From positions 1 through 28,513 of IMG/VR virus record IMGVR_UViG_3300031825_000230: a DNA stretch of 28,513 nucleotides. One strand, given 5' to 3'. How positions within the stretch are numbered: the first letter of the stretch is position 1; each line of letters opens with the position of its first letter. The notes beneath the pieces are model-generated. The model did no database searches. It saw only the letters and a program-made list of their open reading frames with translations, and was not told the origin of the DNA. The translations under genes and the position numbers were made by a program. Origin of the DNA: a virus. Shown in pieces: positions 1 through 27,150 of this stretch.

Positions 1-864
1 CGTCGCTGGCTCGTCGTCGCTCGCGGTTGCATCCCGCCGCCGCGTGTGGCGGTCGTCGCCCTGCTGCTGGTCGCGGCGCTCGTTGGCTCCGTCGCCGCCC
101 AGACGCTCCCCGTCGCCCATTGGAAGATGGACGAGGCGAGCGGCAACCTCGTCGACGTCGTCAACGGTTACAACCTGGTTGAAACCAGCGGCACGATGGA
201 CGCCGCGACCGGCAAGGTCAACGGCGGGCGCGATTGGGAAGCGACGACAGACACCGAATATGCCGAGATCGCCGACAACGCGGATCTCTCGGGCGGTAAT
301 CGCACCTTCGGCGGCACATTTTGGGTGCGCCCAGAAACCGTCAGCGGCGTCATTGCCGACAAGGGCTGGCAGGCCGCGAGCGATTCGAGCCGCGAGTGGG
401 TGCTGTGGTTCAACACGACCACCACGATCCGCTGGACGATGCAGAACGGCGGCTTCGTCCGCGACCTCACGTCGACGACGCCGAGCATCTCGACCAGCAC
501 CTGGTATTTCGTCGCCTTCTGGTACGACGCCAATACCGACCTGATGAACCTGCAGATCAACAACGGGACGCCCGTCACGCAGGCCGACACGCTGGGGAGC
601 TTTGACGGGACGCGCTCGTTTCGACTGGGGGCGTCGCCCGGCCAAACGCTCTACATGGACGGCATTCTCGACGAGTTTAGCTGGTTCGCGGGCAACTTCC
701 CCGACTCGACGCAGCGCACCCTCATGTACAACTCCGGCAACGGCTTGGCCTATCCCTGGTCGAGCCAAACCGCTGTCCCGAAAATCCTGCTGCAGTTGTC
801 AGATCGGCTGCAGAAGCAAGAGCGCCACTTCGCCACTTACGGGGTCTACGCCTTAGCGCCATGA
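1..864 (+). CDS. LamG-like (concanavalin A fold) protein, left end open at window edge
   Basis: The reading frame is open from base 1; the first start-like codon is GTG at 46, with no Shine-Dalgarno, so the true start may lie outside the window. From the GTG it has 272 residues. Residues 1-18 form a hydrophobic signal-like segment ending VAAQ. The rest resembles a LamG/concanavalin A-like glycan-binding domain: it opens with VAHWKMDEASGN, typical of these domains, has aromatic-rich beta strands in the middle, and ends with MDGILDEFSWF near residues 204-214, the usual last strand. It overlaps the next gene by 4 nt (ATGA), so the two are co-transcribed. Next to a hydrolase-bearing tail-type protein and packaging genes, a role in binding host surface sugar is inferred. 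A secreted protein encoded by the phage or host is the alternative. Confidence 0.65.
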   Translation, partial: RRWLVVARGCIPPPRVAVVALLLVAALVGSVAAQTLPVAHWKMDEASGNLVDVVNGYNLVETSGTMDAATGKVNGGRDWEATTDTEYAEIADNADLSGGNRTFGGTFWVRPETVSGVIADKGWQAASDSSREWVLWFNTTTTIRWTMQNGGFVRDLTSTTPSISTSTWYFVAFWYDANTDLMNLQINNGTPVTQADTLGSFDGTRSFRLGASPGQTLYMDGILDEFSWFAGNFPDSTQRTLMYNSGNGLAYPWSSQTAVPKILLQLSDRLQKQERHFATYGVYALAP

Positions 865-3443
865 AATACCTAGCTTCCATTCTCGCTCTGTTGGTCGCCA
901 TGCCGGCGGCCTTCGCCGATCGCACCTACACCGCGGGCTCGACGGATAAGAGCGCCTACGTCCGCATCATTGACGCGACCGACGGCTCCGCCGAGACGGG
1001 CGTCACGAGCGCCACGAGCGGCCTGGACCTGGAATACGTTCGCACCGGCGCCGCGGCCGTCGACCTGACCGAAAGCGATCTTGGCTCGGCTGGGGCGGCT
1101 CACACTGATGGCGGCATCATTCACGTCGGCGGCGGACGCTATCGAGTTGACCTGCCCGACCTCGCCTTCCGCCCCGGAGTCCCCAACGTCGACGTGCAAG
1201 GCGTGGTGACGGGGATGATCGTCGTTCCCGAGACGATTAGCCTCGCGCCCGAGGCGCCGGCCCAAATTCCCGGCCTGCTGTTCTGGATCGAGCCGCGACT
1301 CGGCGGCCTCTACCAAGACTCGGCGGGGACCGCCACGCCCGCGACGGCGAACGACGACCCCGTCGGCTTTGCTCCCGATCTGTCGGGCAACGGCTTTAAC
1401 GCGACTCAAGCGACTGCCGGCAACCGCCCGCTGCGGAAGACGTCGGGCCTCAGTTCCGCCTACGTCAGCATGTTGTTCGATGGCAGCAACGACAACCTGA
1501 CGCTAGGGGCGACCGTCGGCAACATCCAAGGCAACGCGACCTCGACGCGCGTCTACGTCGTCCAGCCCGTGGCCGTCGATGGCTTCCGTATTCTCGGCTA
1601 CAAGGCCGGGCCGGTGAGCGACGACATTAACGCCGCGACGACGCTGTTCCCGAGCGGAACGGTCGGCGCGAGAGTGATTCGCGACGCTTACTCGGGATCT
1701 TCAGGGACCGGGCCGGGGGCAATCGCCGCCGCGACGCCCTACCTGATCGTCGTCCAGCAAAAGGTCGAGTACCTCGGCAACGGCACAACCGCGTCGAACA
1801 CGATGAAGATGATCCATGAGCGGATTTGGATCAACGGCCATTTGGCGAGCGACCAGTATCAGACCGCGACCGCGTGGAGCAACGCGACTGAATGGACGCT
1901 TGGCGGGGCCGGCGCGTCGTTCCCAACGACCGGCCATATGAGCTTGGCGTGCGCCTACGCGGGCGACGTGTCGGAAGATCAGTTGAACCTGCTGGGAACC
2001 TACGTTGCTAAAAACTACGGGATTGCCGTTGGCGACCATCGACCGCCGGCCCGTACCGGCCTGCCGATCGGGACGTTCTTCGTGGGCGACTCGCTCACCA
2101 AAGGCATCGGGGCCAGCGGACACCCTTGGCCGCTGACCGTCTCTCGGCTGCTTTCCGACAAGTTCGTGACCGTCCCGCATAATTTTGGGATTTCTGGCCT
2201 GAGCATCGTCGACGCCGATACGAACCTGCGGCCCGTGATGGTTCCGGGCGAGAACTTCGCGTTTTTCTTTTTGGGGACGAACCCCCTTGGCTCGGGGACG
2301 ACTGCCGCAACGGCCTACGCGCAACTGAAGGCCGAGTGCCAGGAGTCGGACGCGCTGAGGATACGGAACATCGTCATCACCATCCCCGACCGCAACGCGG
2401 GTTTCAGCGGGGGCATCGATACCGCCTCATTCGAGACGGCACGACAGGCGTTCAACGCCCTGGTTGTCGCCAACGCCGTGAGCGAAGGCTGGGCCGACTA
2501 CGTCATTGACATTGGTTCTAGCACGACGCAAGAGATCAACGGCGTGACGCATACGTTCACGCCGCTCAGCGACCCTAACGCCGCCAGCGATACAAACTAC
2601 TTTTCGGACGGGACGCACATTGCCATCAGCGGGCAAAACATCATCGCCGCGGCTGGAGCCGATGCGATTCGCGAGCTTGCCGGCGACACGACCAACCTAG
2701 CCAACCGAACGACGATCGTGGCTCTGCCTGCTGACGCTGCGCCCGGAGCATCGGGCGGCGTGCTGATCGCCGGAGCCAACGCGGCGACGACGTTCTCGAC
2801 GCTCACCTCTACCGGGGCGTTCACCATCAACGGGACAAGCATGGCCGCCCAAACGGGCGACAGCTTCGCTCGCATCGGGCCGACCGGAAGCGGGCTCACG
2901 ACGCTGGCCACGCAAGCCACGCTCAATAACGTGCAGACTACCGTCAATGCAACGTCCGCGGTGATGAGCGTGGCGGGGCCTGAGGTAACGTCGATCAAAG
3001 CGACGACCGACGCCCTTGATCCGCTGCTGCCTGCGACCACGATTGCGGCTGAAGCGGACCTAACTGGCATTGGCGGCACGTCCCAGCCACGCATCAACCG
3101 CAAGCCATCGCCATTTACCACGATCCAAGTCAGCCGCAGAGCAGACGGAACTTATAAATGCTATCCGCCCATCAGGCTCACTGCAGGCCCAGTCAATAAC
3201 GTCTATGCCTTCATTGATATGAGCCCTTTGTTCGGCAAGGAGGACTTCGTCGAGACGGTAGGCGAGGCCACAATCTCGGCAGGCAGTGTTACGCAGGGGG
3301 CAGAGAAAGGCCCTCGCGATTACTACGCGGTGACTGAGTTGGACGGCACAGTAGACGTTGACTGTGAGATCACATTGCCGGTGACGATGGAGAGTGGGAC
3401 GACTGTGGACGTGGTGTTCGATGTGGAGGTGTTGGGTGATTGA
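861..3443 (+). CDS. Multidomain tail-appendage-like protein with SGNH/GDSL hydrolase domain
   Basis: This is an 860-residue protein. Residues 1-19 look like a cleavable signal peptide (ends AAFA). Residues 20-125 form a beta-rich module of the kind common in phage fibre proteins (SAYVRIIDATDG, then YRVDLPD). Residues 135-385 resemble a concanavalin/LamG domain (PGLLFWIEP, DLSGNGFNATQ). Residues 400-605 are an SGNH/GDSL esterase-type hydrolase: block I GDSLT at 409-413, a GTNP block at 472-475 where the Asn is expected, and the catalytic Asp583-Gly-Thr-His586 block. A Thr/Ala-rich linker and a separate C-terminal beta domain (about 750-860) follow. Such hydrolases in phage tails usually remove ester groups (for example O-acetyl) from host glycans; the substrate here is unknown. 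ATGA overlap with the LamG gene suggests a shared appendage. The signal peptide is odd for a virion protein. Confidence 0.75.
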   Translation: MKYLASILALLVAMPAAFADRTYTAGSTDKSAYVRIIDATDGSAETGVTSATSGLDLEYVRTGAAAVDLTESDLGSAGAAHTDGGIIHVGGGRYRVDLPDLAFRPGVPNVDVQGVVTGMIVVPETISLAPEAPAQIPGLLFWIEPRLGGLYQDSAGTATPATANDDPVGFAPDLSGNGFNATQATAGNRPLRKTSGLSSAYVSMLFDGSNDNLTLGATVGNIQGNATSTRVYVVQPVAVDGFRILGYKAGPVSDDINAATTLFPSGTVGARVIRDAYSGSSGTGPGAIAAATPYLIVVQQKVEYLGNGTTASNTMKMIHERIWINGHLASDQYQTATAWSNATEWTLGGAGASFPTTGHMSLACAYAGDVSEDQLNLLGTYVAKNYGIAVGDHRPPARTGLPIGTFFVGDSLTKGIGASGHPWPLTVSRLLSDKFVTVPHNFGISGLSIVDADTNLRPVMVPGENFAFFFLGTNPLGSGTTAATAYAQLKAECQESDALRIRNIVITIPDRNAGFSGGIDTASFETARQAFNALVVANAVSEGWADYVIDIGSSTTQEINGVTHTFTPLSDPNAASDTNYFSDGTHIAISGQNIIAAAGADAIRELAGDTTNLANRTTIVALPADAAPGASGGVLIAGANAATTFSTLTSTGAFTINGTSMAAQTGDSFARIGPTGSGLTTLATQATLNNVQTTVNATSAVMSVAGPEVTSIKATTDALDPLLPATTIAAEADLTGIGGTSQPRINRKPSPFTTIQVSRRADGTYKCYPPIRLTAGPVNNVYAFIDMSPLFGKEDFVETVGEATISAGSVTQGAEKGPRDYYAVTELDGTVDVDCEITLPVTMESGTTVDVVFDVEVLGD

Positions 3444-6989: not shown

Positions 6990-8528
6990 ATGGGAATTAC
7001 CGCCACTATCTCAAGGCTCTTCAGCCGGAAGCCGTCGCCAGTCGACGACGCCCCGGCCGGCAAGGGCATTGAGATCATGCCGGCGGAGAAACTGCGACGG
7101 TTCCAAGCCGCGCAGCCGACGCGGCTGAACCGCGAGCAGTTCGCGCAGGCTCACGGCGAGTCGATTAACACCGATTTGGCCGGCGATTTGCCAGTTTTGC
7201 AGGCTCGGTGCGCGTTCGAATTCTCCAGCAATCCGCTCTTCGAAGGCGTCGTCAACACGTTCAAAGACGACGTCGTAGGGCGCAACGGCCCGCTTTTGCA
7301 GGTTAATAGCGACAACGACGCCTTTAATGAGGCCGTCGAGTCAGCGTTCAAGGTCGTGATGGCTGATCCTGATCCTTCACACCGCTTTGGCGGCGTGGAG
7401 GTGATGAAGACGTGGGTTCACGGGCTCCTGCTCGCCGGTTCCTACGTCAACGTCAACGCGAACGTGCGCCGTCCCACTTCGCCGATCACCTACGGCTGGC
7501 GAACGGTTCACGCGCGGCGCCTCGCTTCGCCCGCTCAACTCACCGGCGATCCTAATGTCGCGTTCGGCGTCCGCCTCAATCCGAAAACCGGCGAGGCGGT
7601 TGAATACTACATCGACAAGCCGCAGCAACTCGGCGCGTACACGCTATCGAACGGCGACTACGAAACCATCCCCGCAGCCGCCGTTCAGCACTGCTTTATT
7701 CCGATCGAACCGGAACAATTGACCGGCTACCCGATGCTGACCAGCGCGCTGGAAACGGCGTGCGATCTTCGGCAGTACGACCAATATGTGATGAAGGCTG
7801 CAAAGAACGCCGCGGGCCTCGCCGTCGGTCTTCAGTCGCAAGGCGCCGATGCGCAGATCAATCCAGACCCGATCGACAGCACCTGCGTCGACTTCGAACC
7901 GGACATGATCAACGTCGCTCCGAAAGGGTGGCAGTTTACCGGCCTGAATCCAACGCAGCCCGGCGCGATGTACACCGAATTCCGCCATGAGCGAGGCGCG
8001 GAACTCGGCAGACCAATTCACATGCCGATGCTCGTGGTCTTCCTGACCGCCGCGGACGCAAACTTTTCGTCAGCGCAGTACGAGGGGACGGTTTACTGCG
8101 ATGGCGTCGCCGGCATTCAGGGCTTCATCGAACGCCGAAGCATGACGCCGATCGTCAACGGGATCATCGCCGAGCTCGTTCTCAAGGGCATGGTGGGGAT
8201 TCCGAAGAAGTTCGATCTCGTGTGGACCTGGAATGTCCCCGCGCACGCGAACATCGAGAAGTTCGTATCGGCCATTCGCATGATGATCGAGGACGGTTTG
8301 ATCTCACAGGCGCAAGCCGCCGCCAAGCTCGGCCTGGACTGGGAAAAGGTTCAAGCCTCCCGTGAGCGATGTGCCAAGGACAACGAGGATAAGAAGCTTC
8401 CGCCCGCTCCGGCCAACGCCGGCAGCGCCGGATCGATCGCAAAAGAAGACGAAGAGGCGGACGCGAAGCCGCCCAGCAAGAAACCACCCGCGAAAAAGCC
8501 CAATGCCCGCTTTAGCGTCACGCATTGA
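6990..8528 (+). CDS. Portal protein (lambda/gpB type)
   Basis: This 512-residue protein would form the ring through which DNA enters and leaves the head. It follows the stop of the joining-type gene directly. Recognisable family features include an early RFQAAQPTRLNREQFAQAHGE segment, an ALETACDLRQYDQYVMKAAKNAAGLAV helix, NVAPKGWQFTGLNPTQPGAMYTEF in the middle, and ANFSSAQYEGTVYCDGVAGIQ, where lambda-type portals have their NYSS-like motif. The C-terminus is Lys/Pro/Ala-rich and disordered (KPPSKKPPAKKP). Length matches the family. The protease gene overlaps its last 26 nt. Confidence 0.9.
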   Translation: MGITATISRLFSRKPSPVDDAPAGKGIEIMPAEKLRRFQAAQPTRLNREQFAQAHGESINTDLAGDLPVLQARCAFEFSSNPLFEGVVNTFKDDVVGRNGPLLQVNSDNDAFNEAVESAFKVVMADPDPSHRFGGVEVMKTWVHGLLLAGSYVNVNANVRRPTSPITYGWRTVHARRLASPAQLTGDPNVAFGVRLNPKTGEAVEYYIDKPQQLGAYTLSNGDYETIPAAAVQHCFIPIEPEQLTGYPMLTSALETACDLRQYDQYVMKAAKNAAGLAVGLQSQGADAQINPDPIDSTCVDFEPDMINVAPKGWQFTGLNPTQPGAMYTEFRHERGAELGRPIHMPMLVVFLTAADANFSSAQYEGTVYCDGVAGIQGFIERRSMTPIVNGIIAELVLKGMVGIPKKFDLVWTWNVPAHANIEKFVSAIRMMIEDGLISQAQAAAKLGLDWEKVQASRERCAKDNEDKKLPPAPANAGSAGSIAKEDEEADAKPPSKKPPAKKPNARFSVTH

Positions 8529-9132
8529 CGAGTTCGACAAGCTCATGTGCGACCGCGGACTATTCGTTCGCGGCGCCAGCGAGCTAGAGATGCGCTCGCA
8601 GAGCATCAACAAGGAAGAGCGTAGCTTCGAAGCGGTCGCCGCGACCGAGACGCCGGCCATGATGCGCGACTACAGGACGTGGGACATCATCGACGAGATC
8701 CTGGTCGCCAAAGGTGGGCAGTTCCCGTCGCAGATCCCGCTCCTTGACAGTCACATGCGATTTGAATTGGCGGACCAGCTTGGTTCAGCCCGGGCGTTTA
8801 CCCGCAAAAACGAGCAGTGGGTTGGCCGCGGATTCGTCGGGCGTGCCGTCGCCGGCAATGCGAAGCGCGAGCAAGTGTGGCAGGACATCGAGGATGGCCA
8901 CATTCGTTCCGTTTCAATCGGTTATCAGGTCCTCAATTACGTCGACATTCCCGCCGGCAAGCGTTCGAAGATTGACGGCAAAACGTACCAGGCAGGCGAC
9001 CGCGTTCTCCGCATCTCGACGGAGTGGCGAGCGCACGAGCTTTCAGTTGTCTCCATCGGCGCCGATTCGCTGGCGTTAATCCGTTCACGTTTGGGCAATC
9101 ACGCCCCCCAGAAGAGGAGTTATTTCCTATGA
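8503..9132 (+). CDS. Prohead protease (HK97/S78 type)
   Basis: This 209-residue serine protease would mature the capsid by trimming capsid and scaffold. I place the start at ATG 8503, inside the end of the portal gene; upstream codons only shadow the portal. Family features are clear: PLLDSHMRF gives the likely catalytic His (H84), IRSVSIGYQ the Ser (S136 or S138), and EWRAHELSVVSIGAD the following HELS strand. Gene order portal-protease-capsid is the usual one. It ends in an ATGA overlap with the capsid gene, whose Shine-Dalgarno (AGAGGAG) lies within the last codons of this gene. Confidence 0.87.
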   Translation: MPALASRIDEFDKLMCDRGLFVRGASELEMRSQSINKEERSFEAVAATETPAMMRDYRTWDIIDEILVAKGGQFPSQIPLLDSHMRFELADQLGSARAFTRKNEQWVGRGFVGRAVAGNAKREQVWQDIEDGHIRSVSIGYQVLNYVDIPAGKRSKIDGKTYQAGDRVLRISTEWRAHELSVVSIGADSLALIRSRLGNHAPQKRSYFL

Positions 9133-10832
9133 ACCCGCGTCTGCTTCAGTACCTCCGCAGCATCGGCCTCGACGCCAACGCCACTGACGAGCAGGCGTGG
9201 GAGTTCTTTCAAGCTCGCCGCGGGTTGCAGTCCAGCATCGCGTGCGCGCTCAACTACAACCAGGCGGACGACGCCGCTCGCACGAATTGCGATTTGATGA
9301 TTCGTGCAATCGGTTACGACCCTGCTAATCCGAATACCCTGCTGGCCGTGGACAAGCCACCGGTTCCCGGTAGCGACGGCACGAGCCTCGGCGGCGACTT
9401 GGAAAAGCGACTGCTTGCTCAAGGCGCCGAGTCAGAGCGTAAGCGCCGCGCGGAGATCACGCAGTACGCAGCGATCGCGGGATGCACGGACGACTTCGTT
9501 CGCGGACTCCTCGACGATCCGCAGATCACTTCCGACGTCGCCCGCGACAAGATTTTCGAGGACCACAAGGCCCGCACTCGCGCGGACGTGTCGCCCGACA
9601 TGCCGACGGCGCCGGCTGGCCACTCTCGCAGCAGCGTCACTGGGATCTCTGTGGACATCCTTGAGGCGGCGATGCTTCACCGCAGCGGCATCGACCCCAC
9701 GAAGCATTGGGTTCGAAGCGATGCGGGAGGCAACCTGTTTCAGCGCCGAGCTACGGCGATCGAGCTTGAAAAGGCCGCCGATCTGTCGTGGGAGCTTCGC
9801 GGCATGTCGATGGAAGACATCCTGCGTCGTGCGGCCGTCATCGACAAGGTGACGTTGCCGGCGGGCCGGGAAGGTCTGATGGTTGCTTACGCCCGGTCGT
9901 TTAGCACCGCCGCGCTGTCGGCGATCTATACGACCAACATGAATTCTCAGCTTCTGGCCGCGTTCGAAGTGGCGCCCGACTCGACTACTGGCGGTTGGGT
10001 GCGCGAGGCTGACGTTCCGAACTTCAAGACCAACGAGCGAGCTCGCATGGTCAATGGCGGAGCCCTCAAGAAGCTCCCGCGGGGAAGTGCGGCCGATCAT
10101 GCGACGTTCGAAGACGTGGTCGAGACGTACAAGATTGCTCGCTATGCGAAGCAATTCGTGGTCGACGACCAGGACATCCAGGACGACACCTTCGGCGCCA
10201 TGAACGAGTTCACGCCGGCGGACTTTGGCGTCGCAGCCCGTCAGTTGCGACCTGATCTGATTTACTCGCTGATCATCGCCAACGCGGCGATGCGAGATTC
10301 CGTCGCCCTCTTCCACGCAACCCACGCGAACTTGAGCACCACAGCAGCGCTCGGGACCGCCGGCAAGTTGGAAGCCGCCCGCAAAGCCATGCGGATTCAG
10401 ACCGAAAACGGTCGCAATCTGAATCCCATGGCGAAGTTCCTGATCGTGCCGCCGGCGTTGGAAGACACCGCCGACGTGATGGTCAACTCGCGCCTGCTAA
10501 TCACCGGTGAGAGCGCCACGAAGCCGGAGAACAACCCGAACTACGGCAAGGGTCTTGTCGTGGTGACGGACGCTCGCTTGGAGAACGGCGTCGTCGATCC
10601 GACCGACGGCACTGGCGCAACGGTTCGCGCCGGCAGTGCGACGACATGGTACTTGGCCGCGATGGCCTCGGCCCACACGATCGAAGTCGGCTACCTGCGT
10701 GGCGCTGGTCGCCGACCGCAGATCCGCTCGTTCGTTCTCACCGAGGGCCGCTGGGGCATCGGCTGGGACATCAAGATGGACATCGGCGCCAAGGCCCTTG
10801 ATTGGCGTGGTTGGCACAAGGCCACGGCGTAG
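9129..10832 (+). CDS. Major capsid protein with long N-terminal extension
   Basis: ATG 9129 is supported by AGAGGAG just upstream and an ATGA overlap with the protease. The protein has 567 residues. The C-terminal part (about 250-567) resembles Mu gpT/HK97-fold capsid proteins: a YARSFSTAALSAIYTTNMNSQLL helix, the KIARYAKQFVVDDQDIQDD strand, ALFHATHANLSTTAALG, and a RTLNPMAKFLIVPPAL-like segment (here RNLNPMAKFLIVPP). The first roughly 230 residues are charged and helical and include GDLEKRLLAQGAESERKRRAEI. They look like a built-in scaffold or delta-like domain that the upstream protease could remove. It is the most abundant structural candidate in the head module. Confidence 0.83.
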   Translation: MNPRLLQYLRSIGLDANATDEQAWEFFQARRGLQSSIACALNYNQADDAARTNCDLMIRAIGYDPANPNTLLAVDKPPVPGSDGTSLGGDLEKRLLAQGAESERKRRAEITQYAAIAGCTDDFVRGLLDDPQITSDVARDKIFEDHKARTRADVSPDMPTAPAGHSRSSVTGISVDILEAAMLHRSGIDPTKHWVRSDAGGNLFQRRATAIELEKAADLSWELRGMSMEDILRRAAVIDKVTLPAGREGLMVAYARSFSTAALSAIYTTNMNSQLLAAFEVAPDSTTGGWVREADVPNFKTNERARMVNGGALKKLPRGSAADHATFEDVVETYKIARYAKQFVVDDQDIQDDTFGAMNEFTPADFGVAARQLRPDLIYSLIIANAAMRDSVALFHATHANLSTTAALGTAGKLEAARKAMRIQTENGRNLNPMAKFLIVPPALEDTADVMVNSRLLITGESATKPENNPNYGKGLVVVTDARLENGVVDPTDGTGATVRAGSATTWYLAAMASAHTIEVGYLRGAGRRPQIRSFVLTEGRWGIGWDIKMDIGAKALDWRGWHKATA

Positions 10833-13142: not shown

Positions 13143-14087
13143 ATGGGAAAGCAATACACGCTAGGCTGCGTTTCGCTCTACGACGGCGCATCGGCCGCCA
13201 CGCACATCTCGGCGAGCAGCATCTCGATCGACGCCAATACGCAGGTGTCTGGCAACGAGTCGGGCTCGTTCTACGAGGAGTTTCAATCGGTTGTGCAGTT
13301 CGACCCGACGGTGAGCTTCACCAGCAAGTGCGTCGGCGAATTGCTCAGTTGGATCGGCTTGGCTGGGCAATGCGTTGGCTCGGCGTTCGACGTGACCCGG
13401 TTCGACGTCATTACCCGCCAGATCGCCGACTGCCAGAATGCTTTGAGCGGAACGCCACACATCCGCGACCGCTTCGACGACGGTCTGCTGACGCTCGGCT
13501 CGCTTGGCGCCGACCGGCAGGGCGACGCGGCCCTGACCGTCATGTTCGACGCGATCACCGACGGCACGAACGCCCCGATCACGCGCACCGACGGCGTTGC
13601 TCTGCCTTCGCCTGTGCTCGCCCAGCGTTATGCCCTGGGGCTTCCGGCGTTTGGCGGGACGACGTTTCCCGACACGGAGAACTGGTCGCTGGAGTTCAAC
13701 ATCTCGAAGACGGAGAAATCGCCGTCGCTCGGCTCGATTTGGACCGACTCAATCGGCGTGCTGACCGTTCGACCTGTCCTGACCATCCGCAATCGCGATA
13801 TCTCGAAGCTGACGAACGCCCTACTCACCGCGGCGAGCGATTCGGCGAGCCATGCTGACACGAAGCTGCAGCTAATCGCTCGAGAGAACGCCGGCAGCTT
13901 CCAAGACTTCGGCGACTCGGTCCACATCGGCATCACGATCGCCGGCCTGCTGACGCCCCAGAACATCGTCAACGCGGCCTCGAATCAGCGGGCAACCAAC
14001 GAACTGCGGATCGCAGCGTCCTACGACGGGACCAATGCCCCGATCCTGTTCGACCTGTCCTCCACCTACGACACGACGCCCCCATGA
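13143..14087 (+). CDS. Likely major tail (tube) protein
   Basis: GAGG precedes ATG 13143. The 314-residue product is beta-rich, with little charge clustering and with repeated strand-turn stretches (SISIDANTQVSGNESGSFYEEFQSVVQFDP; ENWSLEFNISKTEKSPSLGSIW). Tail-tube proteins of siphophages are beta-rich and are encoded between completion genes and the chaperone/tape-measure pair, as here. It is longer than many tube proteins, which could reflect an added surface domain. The 128-residue protein at 14405 is the other candidate for this role. There are only a few cysteines. It overlaps the following gene by 4 nt. Confidence 0.5.
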   Translation: MGKQYTLGCVSLYDGASAATHISASSISIDANTQVSGNESGSFYEEFQSVVQFDPTVSFTSKCVGELLSWIGLAGQCVGSAFDVTRFDVITRQIADCQNALSGTPHIRDRFDDGLLTLGSLGADRQGDAALTVMFDAITDGTNAPITRTDGVALPSPVLAQRYALGLPAFGGTTFPDTENWSLEFNISKTEKSPSLGSIWTDSIGVLTVRPVLTIRNRDISKLTNALLTAASDSASHADTKLQLIARENAGSFQDFGDSVHIGITIAGLLTPQNIVNAASNQRATNELRIAASYDGTNAPILFDLSSTYDTTPP

Positions 14088-14401
14088 CCGAAGACCAACG
14101 AATCACTCGCGTGCTGGCGTGCTGCGGGAAGGCTCCGCGGTCTGCCTGGGCGCTGGACGACGCCGAGAAGGCCGCTGTGGCCGCGCTGTGCGGCGACGAC
14201 GGGCTGCTTGTTGCCGGCGGGCAGGAAGCGTTTCGGCTGCTCATGGTCGAGCACTACGAGCGCCGTAAGGCGACGAGCGAGGAGTTGGAAACGCCAGTGG
14301 TCGGCACGGGAGTGGACCATCCATTCGTGGCGACGGAGATCGAACTAACCCCGGCGTGGTCGGAAGACGACGAAGCCGACTACCTGAAGGAATCGGAGTA
14401 A
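14084..14401 (+). CDS. Small acidic hypothetical tail-region protein (105 aa)
   Basis: ATG 14084 overlaps the tail-tube candidate stop (ATGA). The 105-residue product has an N-terminal helical half (EDQRITRVLACCGKAPRSAWALDDAEKAAVAAL) and an acidic tail (ELTPAWSEDDEADYLKESE). No known motif is seen. It could be a chaperone or adaptor acting on the adjacent tube proteins. The gene ends just ahead of the next start, with GGAG in its final codons serving as the likely ribosome site for the 14405 gene. Confidence 0.55.
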   Translation: MTEDQRITRVLACCGKAPRSAWALDDAEKAAVAALCGDDGLLVAGGQEAFRLLMVEHYERRKATSEELETPVVGTGVDHPFVATEIELTPAWSEDDEADYLKESE

Positions 14402-14404
14402 ACC

Positions 14405-14791
14405 ATGTCCCACTCTTTCCAGTTCACCGAAAAGGTGGTCATCGGCGGCGAGAGCACCAGCCAGCTCAACACGCTAACGGCCGGCACTCGCATTGCCATC
14501 TCCGAAGCGATGCCGATCGCCAACGACACGCTGGTGGCCCTCTCGGTCGACGTGTCGCAGGTGAAAGGTGTCTTCATCCTTAGCGACCAAGACTTGTTGC
14601 TGGAGACAAACAGCAACAACGCCGCCGGCGGCAACTCGCTCTCCCTCAAGGCGAACATCCCGTACATCTGGTACACGAACAAATACGACGCGCTGAAGTT
14701 CACAGTGGACATCACCGCCCTGTATGTCACGAACGCATCTGCCGCCGTGGCTAATCTGACCCTAGAGATCCTGACTGACCCGACGGTGTAA
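14405..14791 (+). CDS. Beta-rich virion protein candidate (128 aa)
   Basis: This 128-residue protein starts at ATG 14405 behind a GGAG. It is a compact all-beta-looking protein with alternating hydrophobics (FTEKVVIGGEST; TLVALSVDVSQVKGVFIL; YDALKFTVDITALYVTN) and no cysteines. It resembles small virion structural or decoration proteins rather than an enzyme. Lying between the tube candidate and the chaperone-position gene, it might be an additional tube or tail-surface subunit. The family is not recognised. Confidence 0.55.
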   Translation: MSHSFQFTEKVVIGGESTSQLNTLTAGTRIAISEAMPIANDTLVALSVDVSQVKGVFILSDQDLLLETNSNNAAGGNSLSLKANIPYIWYTNKYDALKFTVDITALYVTNASAAVANLTLEILTDPTV

Positions 14792-14793
14792 TC

Positions 14794-15576
14794 TTGGGAT
14801 GTGGATTCTTGTATTTCCGTTCTGGCGACCAGCGGACCCTCACCAAAGAGGGCGTCGCCAAGCTCGGCCTCGCCTATGCGTTCCCGGCCGGCATTCAGTG
14901 CGTCCAGGTCAACAGCAACTCTCCTAGCAAGTCGCAGGGGCTCGTCTTCGCGGACCCAGCCCGACACGAGGGGAAACGGGTCGGGTATTTTCCTGACCAG
15001 CAGACGTGGCGGAAGTTGCCGACGGTTGAGGGGCGTGCGGAGCTTTGGGTTGGGTATTGGAATGAGGCGAAACCGGGGCCGGAGGACTTGGCGAGAGACA
15101 AGTTCGTGCGCGGCATTAACTGCGACCTTGCCGACGGTCGCAAGTGGCACATTCCGGTCGTGCGGGTTTATGACGGTGCGCAAGAGCGGTGGATTAGCGA
15201 ACTCCCCTCGGCTTGGATAGATGACGGTCAGGGTGGGTTGTCCAGAGGTACAGAGCCCACCGCCAAGCACATTCATCTTTGGGAACTCACCGCCCCGCTG
15301 GCCGACGCGATGTTCGTTGTCGCCGCCGGCGAGCAGGGGGAGTGGCCGGACGATCGGGCAGTTGGTCGCGCCGTCGTTGCCCTGTTGCAAACAAACTACG
15401 TCGTCGGAGCGTCGGAGTTGGATTTCCTAGAGCTCGTCGGCACTGAAGAGGCATTTGCCATCGTATGCACGGCCACCCGCTACGACGTGTTGAGCGACTG
15501 GATGGATCAAAAAAAAAGGAACTGCGACCAATCGACCGAGAGTGGTGCGAGCTTGTCCGATGGAGCCGCGGCCTAG
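14794..15576 (+). CDS. Tail-assembly-chaperone-position protein, zero-frame product
   Basis: Starting at TTG 14794, the zero frame gives 260 residues. I see no enzyme motif; the later part (VVALLQTNYVVGASELDFLELVGTEEAFAIV) is helical. It sits immediately upstream of the tape measure gene, where lambda-type phages encode the tail chaperone pair G/GT. Near its end a run of nine A (15509-15517) allows a -1 shift that replaces the low-complexity zero-frame tail (RNCDQSTESGASLSD...) with 39 different residues ending exactly at 15635. That position and structure are the main evidence for a chaperone. The N-terminal two thirds do not look like a typical G protein, so the gene may be a fusion or a different family. 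No Shine-Dalgarno is visible. Confidence 0.55.
   Translation: MGCGFLYFRSGDQRTLTKEGVAKLGLAYAFPAGIQCVQVNSNSPSKSQGLVFADPARHEGKRVGYFPDQQTWRKLPTVEGRAELWVGYWNEAKPGPEDLARDKFVRGINCDLADGRKWHIPVVRVYDGAQERWISELPSAWIDDGQGGLSRGTEPTAKHIHLWELTAPLADAMFVVAAGEQGEWPDDRAVGRAVVALLQTNYVVGASELDFLELVGTEEAFAIVCTATRYDVLSDWMDQKKRNCDQSTESGASLSDGAAA
15509..15517 (+). promoter_or_regulatory. Slippery A-run for putative -1 ribosomal frameshift
   Basis: Nine consecutive A follow GATC. Read in the zero frame as CAA AAA AAA AGG, the tandem A-AAA-AAA permits a -1 slip. The -1 frame then reads KELRPIDREWCELVRW and on to a TAG at 15633-15635, one base before the tape measure ATG at 15636. The shifted product would be 280 residues. 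The -1 extension has a normal-looking amino-acid mix with Trp and charged residues, whereas the zero-frame tail is low-complexity. A homopolymer sequencing error is the main alternative. Confidence 0.6.
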
Positions 15577-15635
15577 CACCCGGACACGCCCCGTCGTGGG
15601 CGCAAGTTATGGCGCTCAATCTGGAGCTACTGTAG

Positions 15636-17198
15636 ATGAGCGCGAAATTCACACTCGAAGGATCGGCCGCGGGGGCGGTCAACGCCGTAGGTCAGGTCGA
15701 CAAAGGCCTGGCGTCCGCTGAGAAGAGCGCCGAGAAACTAACGGCGGCCTCTAAGAAAGTTGAAGAGTCGCTACAGAGGCAAGCGCAGCGAATTAAGGAA
15801 CTGGTCGACCCTCAGGAGCGATACAACCGCAAGGTACAGGAGCTTCAGCAGCACCTTCAATCTCAGCGGCTAACGCAAGATCAGGTTACGGCGGCCACGG
15901 CAAAGTATCGCGCCGAACAAGAGGCCACTGTTGGACCTGGTCCTATCTCAAAGGTAATGATGCTGGCGGCAAGCTATTTGTCGGTCCAGCAGGCTATTTC
16001 TCTCGGAACTCAGGCGCTTCGCGAGAACGCTGCAGAGCGTGAAAAGGCTGCCCAGCAGGCCATCCGCAGTCGCGCCGGTCTAGGGTCGTTGTCACAACTG
16101 GCAGCCAACGAGGGGAACACTCCGGCTGAGCGACAGGCGGCGAACGCGCGCCTTATCGCTGAAGCACGCGGCATGGTGGCAAAGGGCGCCGCCGTGGATG
16201 AGAACGAAGCAGGCGCTTTGTTGTTCCAATTGGCCGGCGCCGGACTTAACGAACGCGACCGAGGCTTTGCGGCAAACATCAGGGCCGCCGGTACGCTCAC
16301 GAACGTGGGCGGAGCCGCGGAAGCCTACAGCGCCCTCAAGACGGCACTCGGCGAGGGCGAGGTCGGCACCTTCCGCGAGTTTATGAGCAAGTCGCTCAAG
16401 GCCGCGGGGCCGGCTCCTGGATCGTTTGAGCAATTGCCAATCGCCGCGGCGGCCTCCGGCGGTTCGGCTAAGGCCCTGGGCGTCAGCGACGAGTTCTTAC
16501 TTGCCGCCACAACCATTCTCGGCAAGTCGTCAGGCTCGATCGAGGAAGGCGGGACGCAGCTTGCCGCGTTTCTTCGGCAAACTGAAAAGTCAGGACTGAA
16601 GGGAATCGACGGCGTTGGCGGCATGGCGATCATTGACCGGATCGCATCGCTGCCGGAAGCGAGACAGGGGCTTGGCGGCGTATTGGGCGACCGCTCTGAA
16701 GCAGTTCAGGCATTCCGCACGTTGCGAGACAACCGCGCAGAGCTCCAAGCTTTGATGGGCGGCGTGTCTGGTGCGCAAGGTCAGGACTTGGCGGGCGAGG
16801 CTGCCGGATTGCCAGACACCGACCGGCAACTGCGTGCTGCCGGAGTTCGCGTGCGAGCGGAAGGTGAGGCGCAGGTCGCCAAGACGATGGGTTTGAGCGA
16901 GAGAGAAAATGTTATTAAGGCGATTCGCGCAGAGCGGCGTGGAGTTTTGGCGTCTGAAGGAAGCGGCGGCGGAATGCGCAGTCTTTACGAGTCCGTGCAT
17001 GACCTCCTCGGTTCTGATCAGGAAATCAGATTAGCGCAGATGCAGATTGAAGAAACAAAGGCCCGGACGGGAGGGAAAATGTCCGCGTTCTCGCCAGAGG
17101 TTACTGCCCTCGTTGAAGACTACCAGCGACGGCAAGCGGAATCGCTAGAGAAGATCGAGCAGCAGGGGAGAGCTAGAGTCTCGACTCGCCCTGAATGA
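15636..17198 (+). CDS. Tail tape measure protein (short)
   Basis: This 520-residue protein begins directly after the stop of the -1 frame of the chaperone-position gene. Its N-terminus is a helical, Ala/Lys/Glu-rich coiled-coil stretch (VGQVDKGLASAEKSAEKLTAASKKVEESLQRQAQRIKELVDPQERYNRKVQEL), typical of tape measure proteins. A hydrophobic helix follows at about 108-122 (VMMLAASYLSVQQAISLG). Then come long Ala/Gly/Glu-rich helical regions and a final helix ETKARTGG...EDYQRRQAESLEKIEQQ. Tape measures set tail length, and this one would suit a fairly short tail. No peptidoglycan hydrolase domain is embedded. The order chaperone-tape measure-distal tail-hub is the standard siphophage one. Confidence 0.8.
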   Translation: MSAKFTLEGSAAGAVNAVGQVDKGLASAEKSAEKLTAASKKVEESLQRQAQRIKELVDPQERYNRKVQELQQHLQSQRLTQDQVTAATAKYRAEQEATVGPGPISKVMMLAASYLSVQQAISLGTQALRENAAEREKAAQQAIRSRAGLGSLSQLAANEGNTPAERQAANARLIAEARGMVAKGAAVDENEAGALLFQLAGAGLNERDRGFAANIRAAGTLTNVGGAAEAYSALKTALGEGEVGTFREFMSKSLKAAGPAPGSFEQLPIAAAASGGSAKALGVSDEFLLAATTILGKSSGSIEEGGTQLAAFLRQTEKSGLKGIDGVGGMAIIDRIASLPEARQGLGGVLGDRSEAVQAFRTLRDNRAELQALMGGVSGAQGQDLAGEAAGLPDTDRQLRAAGVRVRAEGEAQVAKTMGLSERENVIKAIRAERRGVLASEGSGGGMRSLYESVHDLLGSDQEIRLAQMQIEETKARTGGKMSAFSPEVTALVEDYQRRQAESLEKIEQQGRARVSTRPE

Positions 17199-21492: not shown

Positions 21493-22548
21493 ATGGCTGA
21501 AATCATCTATGCCGATCCGGTCACTGAAGACATCCTCATCAACGAGAGTGATGAGATTGCCGGCGGTGAGGAAACCGAATGCACCTGTTGCTGCGACTGT
21601 GAAACGGACGGCCCGGCCGCATCTTTCACCAGCGAGCAAACGTCGGCCGACCCTGAGGGCAACGCCTGCTGCGTCCAGTTTGCTGATACTTCGACGCCCG
21701 GCGATTGCGGAGAGATCGTATCGTGGCTCTGGGATTTCGGCGACGAGAACACCAGTACGTCGCAAAACCCCGAGCACTGCTACACGGGAGCCGGTCCGTG
21801 GACGGTTCGTCTGACCGTGACGGATAGCAGCGGCTGCACCGACTTCTTGGAGACGAGCGTTCCCTGCCCGTGCAATTGCGCAACCAACGCTCCCGAGGCG
21901 GACTTCAGTTATACGCAAACCGACGACGACCCCTGCTGCTTTCAGTTCAATGATGAAAGCGTGGCTGAAGCAGAGTGCGGAGCAATCGCTTCGTGGTTAT
22001 GGGACTTCGGAGACGGCGACACTTCGACCTCAGAGAATCCGACGCATTGCTACGACGACGCAGGACCGTGGGATGTGACGCTGACGGTCACGGACGATAT
22101 GGGCTGCACCGACTCGGTCGTCATGGAGGTGACCTGCGAGCCGAACCCATGCTCCTGCTGCGATGAAGAGTTCTTGCCAGAGACTGCGACGGTGACGATT
22201 AGCGGCTTCGCGGAGAACGTTGCGGCAAACGATTGCGACGCTTGCTCAAGCATCAACGGCACGCATACGGTGACGAGCGGTCTTACTGGCGTTTTCTGTC
22301 ACTATCAAAAAGTATTCGACATCTCGCCATGCCGCGACGGCTTCTCTACTCAAGTCACCATAACCCTGGTGTTCTGTCAGTTTGTCGACAAGTGGCGGCT
22401 CACGATTGTCATCGACGGCGGCCAGACCGATTATTGGGAGAAAGACGCACTGGCGAGTTGCCGCGGCAGTCACACGTTCGACTTAGTGTTTTCGGGCGGC
22501 ATTGATCGTGTCTGCGACGTGCCAGCAACCGTGACCGTGGCCGTCTAG
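21493..22548 (+). CDS. Cysteine-rich tandem PKD-domain protein
   Basis: The 351-residue protein contains two PKD domains, at about 41-118 and 133-208, each with the hallmark WLWDFGD (78-84 and 168-174) followed by TSTS-NP-HCY. The second half (226-351) is a further beta domain. It has about 29 cysteines, placed regularly: clusters CTCCCDC (30-36), CPCNC (125-129) and C215/C220/C222/C223 bracket the PKD units. Within the units, C72/C96/C115 recur as C162/C186/C205 exactly 90 residues later, a tandem duplication. There is no signal peptide. PKD domains mediate surface or sugar contacts; the cysteines may form disulphides in the virion or bind metal. It is the last large gene of the tail block, so a tail-tip adhesin is the likeliest role. 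Confidence 0.75.
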   Translation: MAEIIYADPVTEDILINESDEIAGGEETECTCCCDCETDGPAASFTSEQTSADPEGNACCVQFADTSTPGDCGEIVSWLWDFGDENTSTSQNPEHCYTGAGPWTVRLTVTDSSGCTDFLETSVPCPCNCATNAPEADFSYTQTDDDPCCFQFNDESVAEAECGAIASWLWDFGDGDTSTSENPTHCYDDAGPWDVTLTVTDDMGCTDSVVMEVTCEPNPCSCCDEEFLPETATVTISGFAENVAANDCDACSSINGTHTVTSGLTGVFCHYQKVFDISPCRDGFSTQVTITLVFCQFVDKWRLTIVIDGGQTDYWEKDALASCRGSHTFDLVFSGGIDRVCDVPATVTVAV

Positions 22549-22558
22549 GGGCAACACT

Positions 22559-22918
22559 ATGTCAAAGCCTCGCCGCATCGCACCGAAGCCAAGGCCGAAA
22601 TGGTACGTCCCTCCCTCCAAGGAGGAGCGCCGCAAGCCGCGTGCGCCGCATGATCGCGAGCGCATCGAGTACGGATGGGGAGATTGGATGGCGTGGGCGC
22701 TGGCGAAGGGATACGTCATCCCGTTCGTGAAGATGACGCCCAGGAAATGGCGGCAATGGAAAGTAAGCTGCGGACTCTCCGGCGCGTGCGGATGTACGGA
22801 GCGGAAAATTGGACTCAACAAGTTCGGCCGCTGGGTCGTGAAGCCGTTCCGCCGCCTCGCAGCGAGCGTGAGGAAGTGGTGGAAAGCGTTGCCCCCCCCC
22901 GCCCCGCCCGCGGAGTGA
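22559..22918 (+). CDS. Basic hypothetical protein with CxC motif (119 aa)
   Basis: A very basic 119-residue protein: an N-terminal disordered Lys/Arg/Pro stretch (KPRRIAPKPRPKWYVPPSKEERRKPRAPHD), a Trp-rich middle (WGDWMAWALAKG), then CGLSGACGCTERKIGLNKFGRW around residues 71-92 and a Pro-rich tail. A Cys-Gly-Cys segment followed by a Leu-Asn helix is seen in small phage proteins near the end of structural modules, but I cannot name a function. The high positive charge suggests nucleic-acid or membrane-surface binding. Ten bases separate it from the PKD gene, so it is in the same operon. Confidence 0.55.
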   Translation: MSKPRRIAPKPRPKWYVPPSKEERRKPRAPHDRERIEYGWGDWMAWALAKGYVIPFVKMTPRKWRQWKVSCGLSGACGCTERKIGLNKFGRWVVKPFRRLAASVRKWWKALPPPAPPAE

Positions 22919-23458: not shown

Positions 23459-23547
23459 TGACCGCCCTCCTCGTCATCGCGAAGATCCTCGGCGGAGCGG
23501 CGCTCATCGTCGCGGGGATTCTGCTGCGGGAGGTGGTGAGGCGCTAA
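23458..23547 (+). CDS. Tiny single-pass membrane peptide (29 aa)
   Basis: ATG 23458 overlaps the upstream stop (TGATG). The product is a short hydrophobic helix flanked by charged ends: MTALLVIAKILGGAALIVAG then LLREVVRR. It would span the membrane once. Its 3' end overlaps the convergent integrase stop by 4 nt. It could be a holin-like or host-membrane peptide, but phage peptides of this size often have unknown roles. Coupled translation and a clean helix argue that it is real. Confidence 0.5.
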   Translation: MTALLVIAKILGGAALIVAGILLREVVRR

Positions 23548-24338
23548 AGCTCCGGAGGCGAGATCGGCCCTGGATTCAACAATCGGAACGCCCAATAGTG
23601 CTGCCGGAAGATATCAGCCGCGTTCCCCAGTAGCTTGTGGCCGAAGCCCGGCTTGGCCGCTTCCATGTACGTCCCCGCCGAACGCCTCAGCCACTTCCAC
23701 GAGCCCCGCCTAACGCCGCTGGCGATGATCAGGGCCTTGAACTCTGTGCGGAACTGGTTGCCGCTAAAGGGCCACGGGACGGCTTGTGCGAGCCCGTGGC
23801 GGCGAATCGACCGCATCGCGTCGGCGGGGAATCGAACCGTCACCCCCCTGCCCGTCTTGCTCTGCGTGACGTGGCAGACGCCGTCGGCCTGAATGGCTCC
23901 CGTAGGCACGCCGAACAAGTCGCCGTAGCGGAGCCCTGTTCCATAGCCTGAGCGAATCGCCAGCGGCCAAAAGTCGCGGTATGCCATCCCATTGGGGAGC
24001 GTGCCGTCCATTCTCTCGGCAGTCTTGATCAGCAGCCGCAATTCTTCTAGCGAGTAGCAGTCGATTTGCTTCTCTCGCATCCGAACGTGACGCACGGGCG
24101 ATTCCGGCGACCAGCCTGAGAACTTCAAGACGGCGAGCAGCGACGTGCGATAGCCGCGCACCGTCTCCGGCTTGAGGCCGCGTTGCTCTAGGCCGGTGAG
24201 ATATTCATTGAGTAGTCGGGCGGTCGGCTGTCGCCCGGCAAGCCACGCGGTAAAGAGCTTCGTGCGGCTGCGAATCTGGCGGGCGTACTGGGGACAGGTG
24301 GGACGGGAAAGCAAGTAGGCTTCAGCGCGGTCTATCAT
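23544..24338 (-). CDS. int: Tyrosine recombinase (phage integrase)
   Basis: From ATG 24338 (AGGA five bases upstream) the product has 264 residues; a TTG at 24401 would add 21 and has no ribosome site. Residues 1-75 form a SAM-like core-binding domain (PQYARQIRSRTKLFTAWL). The catalytic domain has R137 (GYGTGLRYGD), K161 (QSKTGRG), R218 in KWLRRSAGT, and Y248 in FRQHYW as the nucleophile. The usual His of the HxxR box is K215, and the usual LGH is LGN (N239). The first substitution is known in some recombinases; the second is unusual. It recombines attP with the host attB, and its 5' end faces the tRNA-derived att core at 24522-24568. Confidence 0.87.
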   Translation of the reverse strand: MIDRAEAYLLSRPTCPQYARQIRSRTKLFTAWLAGRQPTARLLNEYLTGLEQRGLKPETVRGYRTSLLAVLKFSGWSPESPVRHVRMREKQIDCYSLEELRLLIKTAERMDGTLPNGMAYRDFWPLAIRSGYGTGLRYGDLFGVPTGAIQADGVCHVTQSKTGRGVTVRFPADAMRSIRRHGLAQAVPWPFSGNQFRTEFKALIIASGVRRGSWKWLRRSAGTYMEAAKPGFGHKLLGNAADIFRQHYWAFRLLNPGPISPPEL

Positions 24339-24444
24339 GGCGTTCCTGGGGAGGTACGCCGTCCGTGGTCCGTTCCGTGGCCGTCCAGCGGCCTTCGTCA
24401 AACAGTAATCCGGAGACGAGAAGAGAAGATTCCCTCATCGTAAT

Positions 24445-25932: not shown

Positions 25933-27150
25933 ATGGATGCGATTGCGCGCGTTACGTTCTTGCCGAACGGATTGCAGTTCAGCGACGAGATGTCGTTCGA
26001 CGAATGGCAGGGCGTTGGCGAGCAGATCAAGGCGTCGGTCCAAGGCCACCAATGGTGGATTGGTGATTGGCTTCGCTTCGGCGGTCACAAGTGGGGCGAC
26101 AAGTATGAGTCGGCTGCCGAACTGCTGGGCCTGAAGCCAAACACGCTGCGGAACTTCAAGTCGACAGCAGAGCGATATCCGGACTTATCACTACGTAGTG
26201 ATAATCTTCCATTTGCCCACCATCAGATTGCAGCGGCACTCCCCGAAGAATCTCGCCAAACCGTACTTGAGCAAGCCGCCGAGAACGAATGGTCAGCCGC
26301 TCGCCTCCGCGCCGCCATCCGCGAACAACAACCTCCAGCCATCGCCGGTAAGGTTGAAGTCGAACTAGACGGCAGCGACGACGGCACTCGCTGGGAAATT
26401 CTCAACTGCGACGTGCTGGAGGGTTTGCAATCGCTGTTCGATCGCGGCGTCCAGGCTCGCGTAGCGTTCACCGACCCGCCGTACAACATCGGCATTGACT
26501 ACGGCAAGGGAAAGAAAGCCGACTCACTCACTGATGGGGAGTACATGCAGTGGGTTCGCGAGTGGTTGTGGGCGACTCGCGACTGCCTGACAGACGACGG
26601 CTCGCTGTGGGTAATGATAAATGACGAGTACGCCGCCGAGTACGCGATCGTCCTCAAATCACTGGGGCTGACGATTCGTTCTTGGATTAAGTGGTACGAG
26701 ACGTTCGGCGTTAATTGCAGCAACAAGTTCAATCGGACTTCGCGCCACATCTTCTACTGCGTCAAAGACCCCAAGCGTTTCGTCTTTAATCGTGACGCGG
26801 TGACTCGGCCGAGCGATCGCCAAACCAAATACAACGACCCTCGCGCTGCCGAAGGCGGCAAGATTTGGGACGACGTTTGGCAGATTCCCCGGCTATTCGG
26901 AACCGCCGTCGAGCGGCTTCCAGACTTTCCAACCCAACTGCCTCTGGCATTGGTTCGCCCCATCGTGGAGTGCGCTTCCGACGTGGGCGATTTGGTGATT
27001 GATCCGTTCAACGGCAGCGGAACAACGGGTGCCGCTGCAATCGAAACCGGCCGCTCGTATATCGGCATCGAGCTATCTGAGACGTTCGCGTCAAAGGCTC
27101 GAATTCGACTCGGACACACGCAGCGGCCACTGATTAGGAGTGCAACGTGA
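25933..27150 (+). CDS. DNA methyltransferase with N-terminal DNA-binding-like domain
   Basis: This 405-residue protein has GGAGG at 25921-25925 before ATG 25933. Residues 1-135 form a helical module with a helix-turn-helix-like part (AAELLGLKPNTLRNFKSTAERY) and a second set of helices (FAHHQIAAALPEESRQTVLEQAAE), as found in phage DNA-binding proteins. Residues 150-395 form an amino-methyltransferase: catalytic DPPYNIG (181-187) comes before the SAM-binding DPFNGSGTTG (357-366), the beta-class order. It would methylate adenine N6 or cytosine N4; target sequence unknown. No cognate restriction gene lies nearby, so it probably acts alone, to protect phage DNA or regulate genes. The next gene overlaps its stop by 4 nt. 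Confidence 0.85.
   Translation: MDAIARVTFLPNGLQFSDEMSFDEWQGVGEQIKASVQGHQWWIGDWLRFGGHKWGDKYESAAELLGLKPNTLRNFKSTAERYPDLSLRSDNLPFAHHQIAAALPEESRQTVLEQAAENEWSAARLRAAIREQQPPAIAGKVEVELDGSDDGTRWEILNCDVLEGLQSLFDRGVQARVAFTDPPYNIGIDYGKGKKADSLTDGEYMQWVREWLWATRDCLTDDGSLWVMINDEYAAEYAIVLKSLGLTIRSWIKWYETFGVNCSNKFNRTSRHIFYCVKDPKRFVFNRDAVTRPSDRQTKYNDPRAAEGGKIWDDVWQIPRLFGTAVERLPDFPTQLPLALVRPIVECASDVGDLVIDPFNGSGTTGAAAIETGRSYIGIELSETFASKARIRLGHTQRPLIRSAT

Follow-up and report, generated by a model that had tools for sequence, protein, structure and literature searches.

A virus record of 28,513 nucleotides from IMG/VR, analyzed here over its whole length (the window), very probably encodes a conserved pair of tail assembly chaperones of the G/GT type, the longer of which is reached by a -1 frameshift, whatever the mechanism of that shift. 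The shift falls at a tract of nine adenines, and the evidence inclines us, with modest confidence, to the fuller statement that the pair is made by a slip at this tract with a transcriptional step included. What is new here, as far as the comparison of related sequences can tell, is a frameshift tract that conserves its length and not its register.

The two reading frames and their genomic setting

The chaperone gene (14794..15576, plus strand) begins with a TTG codon that agrees with the starts of its relatives, and normal decoding of 14794-15576 would yield a short, G-like form of 260 aa. The A9 tract lies near its end (15509..15517, plus strand), where the zero frame reads CAA AAA AAA AGG with the run in codon phase 2 and continues, as the initial annotation had described, into a 19-residue tail, RNCDQSTESGASLSDGAAA, at 15517..15576 on the plus strand, with its stop at 15574-15576. 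A one-base slip at the tract in a fraction of the products would replace this tail with a T-like domain of 39 residues, KELRPIDREWCELVRWSRGLAPGHAPSWAQVMALNLELL, and so give a fusion of 280 aa. This -1 frame extension (15516..15635, plus strand) is homologous in 15 relatives, and translation from 15516 reproduces both the length and the TAG stop at 15633-15635 that had been proposed for it. The extension was also correctly described as ending at the start of the tape measure gene, but not one base before it, as the TAG and the tape-measure ATG (15636-15638) abut with zero bases between them. The 28.5 kb window has no other A-run of seven or longer, and a first-order composition model predicts 0.07 A-runs of nine or more over this length. 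The only other homopolymer of nine is a run of C (22892-22900), close to the 3' end of an open reading frame at 22559-22918 whose product ends in KALPPPAPPAE.

The source record encodes a lambda-family portal, a GpA-type terminase and a capsid protein. Upstream of the chaperone gene lies a probable major tail protein gene (13143..14087, plus strand), which is assigned by position only, has a syntenic 310-aa counterpart in relative L022, and gave no family match in Pfam and PHROGs scans. Two small open reading frames (14084-14401 and 14405-14791) separate this candidate from the chaperone gene. A tape measure candidate of 520 aa (15636..17198, plus strand) stands directly downstream of the chaperone gene both in the window and in its relatives; it is assigned by this position and by its place in the relatives, and its Pfam and PHROGs scans returned no family match of its own except weak coiled-coil hits. 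In the head region, the family phrog_4523 (‘major head and protease protein’) matches first the reading frame at 8362-9132 and then the capsid reading frame at 9024-10832, which indicates that protease and capsid protein are separate here and fused in the phrog_4523 family. Elsewhere in the window, a large protein with a GDSL-lipase domain (PF13472) is encoded at 861-3443 and a protein with two PKD domains at 21493-22548, both of them possible tail-tip or host-contact proteins. An N6/N4 DNA methyltransferase (Pfam PF01555, E 3e-46) is found at 25933-27150. The product of 23544-24401, on the minus strand, resembles a tyrosine recombinase by eye and has no Pfam match at E 0.01; if it is a tyrosine recombinase, a temperate phage would be suggested.

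A probable chaperone family with a conserved extension

Relatives were collected by several routes. An IMG/VR protein scan led to L003/L004 and, by way of the terminase, to L008 and L009, and alignment searches contributed L015, L016, L018 and L019. L009 is about 30% identical, and L008 and L010 about 42%, and in all three the gene carries an A9 toward its end, followed by a -1 extension that runs up to the next gene. When DNA was scanned for an A9 with codons for YVRW..GL after it, regardless of frame, six stretches were returned, all of them from the family and including the new members L022 and L023/L025; relaxing the pattern to A6 or more added 18 further matches, with A6 or A7, none of which is related to the family. 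A scan for the N-domain motif Y[YF]P[DE][QEK]QTW, which is blind to the run, found 20 loci, all of them relatives. After removal of duplicates, 16 contigs (the window and 15 diverged relatives) carry the N-domain, the A-run and the -1 extension. The family has no match among phage GenBank records searched by tblastn with the chaperone, and no member was found in bacterial and archaeal genomes by protein and DNA-pattern searches, where the ten DNA-pattern matches are unrelated. The initial annotation had proposed a comparison with related phages, in which both the A-run and the open -1 frame are now seen to be present. It had also raised a homopolymer error as a concern, and the recurrence of A9 in independent metagenome assemblies argues against one.

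The arrangement next to the tape measure gene is likewise kept, with its start lying 0-9 nt past the -1 stop in seven of eight members measured and 126 nt past it in L018. Three related loci (L069, L070 and L072) have neither the extension nor the A-run and form one separate clade with support of 100/99. In them the chaperone N-domain still immediately precedes the tape measure gene, and this clade is the natural comparison for the role of the extension. In L003/L072 the tape-measure reading frame is interrupted (341 aa, then 272 aa; at about 7500-7520 in L003), while the near-identical L073 has an intact frame of 620 aa; the interruption is either an error or a real frame difference.

Across the family the extensions range from 29 to 51 aa, with identity down to about 22-25%, and share the consensus RWLxYxRWxxGLxPxYRPTxADLxAL, in which W, G and P are invariant; a search of the extension against PHROGs gave no match. 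Pairwise comparison of eight extensions counts 417, 415 and 622 differences at -1 codon positions 1, 2 and 3, respectively, and this excess at third positions indicates purifying selection on the -1 reading of the extension. The zero-frame tails of the relatives also resemble one another (NTSDG-like), a similarity that simply results from reading the conserved -1 motif YVRW in the zero frame. A -1-frame stop precedes the run by 1-9 nt in L010, L017 and L018, and start codons in that frame are absent from L022 and L023. With the -1 frame closed at the run in the first three and startless in the other two, separate initiation of the extension can be rejected and only a shift of frame reaches it. 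The stops in L010, L017 and L018 further place the change of frame in the run or right at it, and in each of the eight members tested the run supplies the sole in-register XXXYYYZ heptamers between the frame limits.

The N-terminal part of the protein measures 240 aa, and the whole N-domain and its start are common to the relatives. It is matched by no Pfam, PHROG or NCBIfam model. An AlphaFold (AF2) model of the N-domain, based on ten family members, has a mean pLDDT of 91 and a pTM of 0.87, and predicts a front half rich in beta structure and a helical back half. In a fold search of BFVD, the sole viral match with E <0.001 is A0A6J5LCU1, named ‘Tail assembly chaperone’ (probability 1.00, E 6e-4), a partial match with a TM-score of 0.27 by query and 0.43 by target; a PDB fold search of the N-domain returned nothing under E 0.001. 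The pair most probably belongs to the G/GT type, given its position, its architecture, the conserved frameshift and the predicted chaperone-like fold. The relatives, the substitution pattern in the -1 frame and the predicted fold thus support the earlier proposal of a tail chaperone pair produced by a -1 frameshift. Both proteins are presumably made, with roles that can be drawn by analogy with lambda: the N-terminal part common to both forms would form a coat around the tape measure protein, whose gene follows immediately, and the extension would bring in the major tail protein; how often the slip occurs would fix the ratio between the two forms.

Run length, codon phase and the origin of the slip

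The run is A9 in 14 of the 16 members, A7 in L056 and A10 in L067; leaving out L022, the sole member that was not also found by the run-independent protein search, A9 is present in 13 of 15. The A9 members are spread over codon phases 1, 2 and 3 (6, 5 and 3 members, respectively), such that, relative to the heptamer A_AAA_AAA, the two extra As stand before it in six, one on each side of it in five, and after it in three. A tree of the family, many inner branches of which are weakly supported, requires at least six changes of phase against at least two changes of length, one for each of the two members of deviating length (L056 and L067). If flanks were random and only A_AAA_AAA were needed, a total of nine would have a probability of about 0.07-0.15 per independent case (for A frequencies of 0.18-0.35), a figure that cannot simply be multiplied over the 16 members, as they share ancestry and are not fully independent. 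Three to five independent cases already make a fixed nine unlikely under a requirement for the heptamer only.

For the slip itself we regard transcriptional slippage as the likelier source, without great assurance, because the nine-base length persists whichever codon phase the run is in. RNA polymerase would add one extra A on the A9 template, and the resulting A10 transcripts would be read straight into the -1 frame; slippage of the polymerase on a 9-bp RNA:DNA hybrid would select for a fixed length in any phase. Bacterial transcription errors at A/T runs are mostly single-base insertions, whose frequency grows exponentially as the run lengthens to nine (PMC5574713); in many bacterial genomes, selection against slippage becomes apparent at this length (PMC1088944); and an A9 drives slippage in Thermus dnaX (PMC3711429). 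The shift in this family is in the -1 direction in all 16 members, and none of them is an ortholog shifting in the opposite direction. By a rule of thumb, families with a single direction are taken as cases of ribosomal frameshifting, which counts against transcription here, and orthologs with both directions as cases of transcriptional slippage, though the latter is not strictly defining (PMC3711429). Since insertions dominate at A-runs (PMC5574713), a single -1 direction is also expectable under transcriptional slippage. The A7 of L056 likewise speaks against transcription, as it is short for polymerase slippage and suits slippage of tRNAs.

Tandem tRNA slippage requires A_AAA_AAA, that is, seven As in a fixed register. 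It is possible, although we consider it doubtful, that the same G/GT pair arises by programmed -1 ribosomal frameshifting, with two tRNA-Lys slipping together on this heptamer. An in-register A_AAA_AAA is contained in the run of every one of the 16 members, all of which shift by -1, and the run of L056 is exactly that heptamer and no more. AAAAAAA slippery sites have been annotated in the same gene pair of Paenibacillus phages (PMC6256562), and chaperone genes related to those of HK97 show 6-7% frameshifting in reporters (PMC3711429). This mechanism needs only seven As and leaves unexplained a total of nine in 14 of the 16 members, whose two extra As may precede the heptamer, flank it or follow it. 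Nor do the flanks of the run offer the usual accompaniments: a search for stimulatory RNA structure on either side gave a z-score below -2 in none of eight members and no conserved structure, and no conserved upstream Shine-Dalgarno-like site was seen in the flanks inspected. Many phage G/T sites may also lack a downstream structure or a Shine-Dalgarno-like element. Transcriptional and ribosomal slippage may both contribute. The frameshift proposed in the initial annotation stands as a probable chaperone frameshift, but its assumption that the ribosome slips does not carry over in the same way, because the fixed length and variable phase point as much or more to transcription. Sliding of ribosomes on poly-A was considered separately and rejected, as it needs about A11 and occurs little at A9-A10 (PMC4363877).

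Genetic phase variation, in which virions with A9 or A10 DNA would constitutively produce either the short chaperone or the long one, is very unlikely. An A9 is prone to replication slippage, and one relative has A10 and another A7; however, with the A10 of L067 the extension is nonetheless in the -1 frame, and hence this run is not the switched-on state of the same allele. Moreover, 14 of the 16 assemblies have A9, and, judging from lambda, a phage that makes only one form should be poor at tail assembly. Least probable of all is that the frames are accidental, with a neutral or replication-slippage A9 before a chance-open -1 frame or an error of assembly: homopolymers are error-prone in both sequencing and replication, and the window alone could not exclude this, but 15 relatives keep the arrangement, including a -1 stop next to where the tape measure gene begins, at the low identities given above, the extension-less clade has also no run, and the relatives together with the codon-position bias of the -1 frame rule out an assembly error and a chance open frame.

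Known slippage systems and what the tract would mean

Among tailed phages, the G/GT frameshift is the textbook case of conserved recoding, and it is attributed to the ribosome; in lambda the slip site is GGGAAAG. The system described here has the same gene order as lambda gpG/gpGT (chaperone, -1 extension, tape measure), adds a short C-terminal domain by shifting to -1 shortly before the first reading frame ends, and, in several of the relatives, has like lambda no separate start for the extension. It differs from lambda in its N-terminal part, which has a beta-rich front half and is not detectably related in sequence to any known chaperone family, in a slip site that is an A9 of fixed length, and in the small size of the extension, which is only 29-51 aa.

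In other respects the tract resembles systems of transcriptional slippage. In Thermus thermophilus dnaX and in bacterial IS elements, which slip at about 8-10 As, a comparable A-run lies in a coding region, its length rather than its phase is apparently kept, and the alternative frame is used productively; the present case differs in being a phage morphogenesis gene with a shift in the -1 direction only, for which slippage is predicted from sequence. Transcriptional slippage in spa13 of the Shigella type III secretion system also adds a C-terminal extension, in proteins and an organism unrelated to those considered here, and it also affects spa32, the downstream length-control gene (PMC5009743). 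No transcriptional case of G/GT is reported in the literature covered here on transcriptional slippage with phage or tail assembly, a set that lies mostly outside the subscription papers and does not extend to the 2004 survey of tail-assembly frameshifts.

The family represents tail chaperones without an entry in Pfam, PHROGs or NCBIfam, and annotation pipelines would truncate the protein at the run. We lean slightly toward the view that this phage family sets the ratio of short to long chaperone by slippage of RNA polymerase on the conserved A9. An A-run that is held at nine while its register drifts suggests that RNA polymerase can set the same protein ratio, and a transcriptional version of this frameshift would show the ratio, not one particular mechanism, to be the target of selection.
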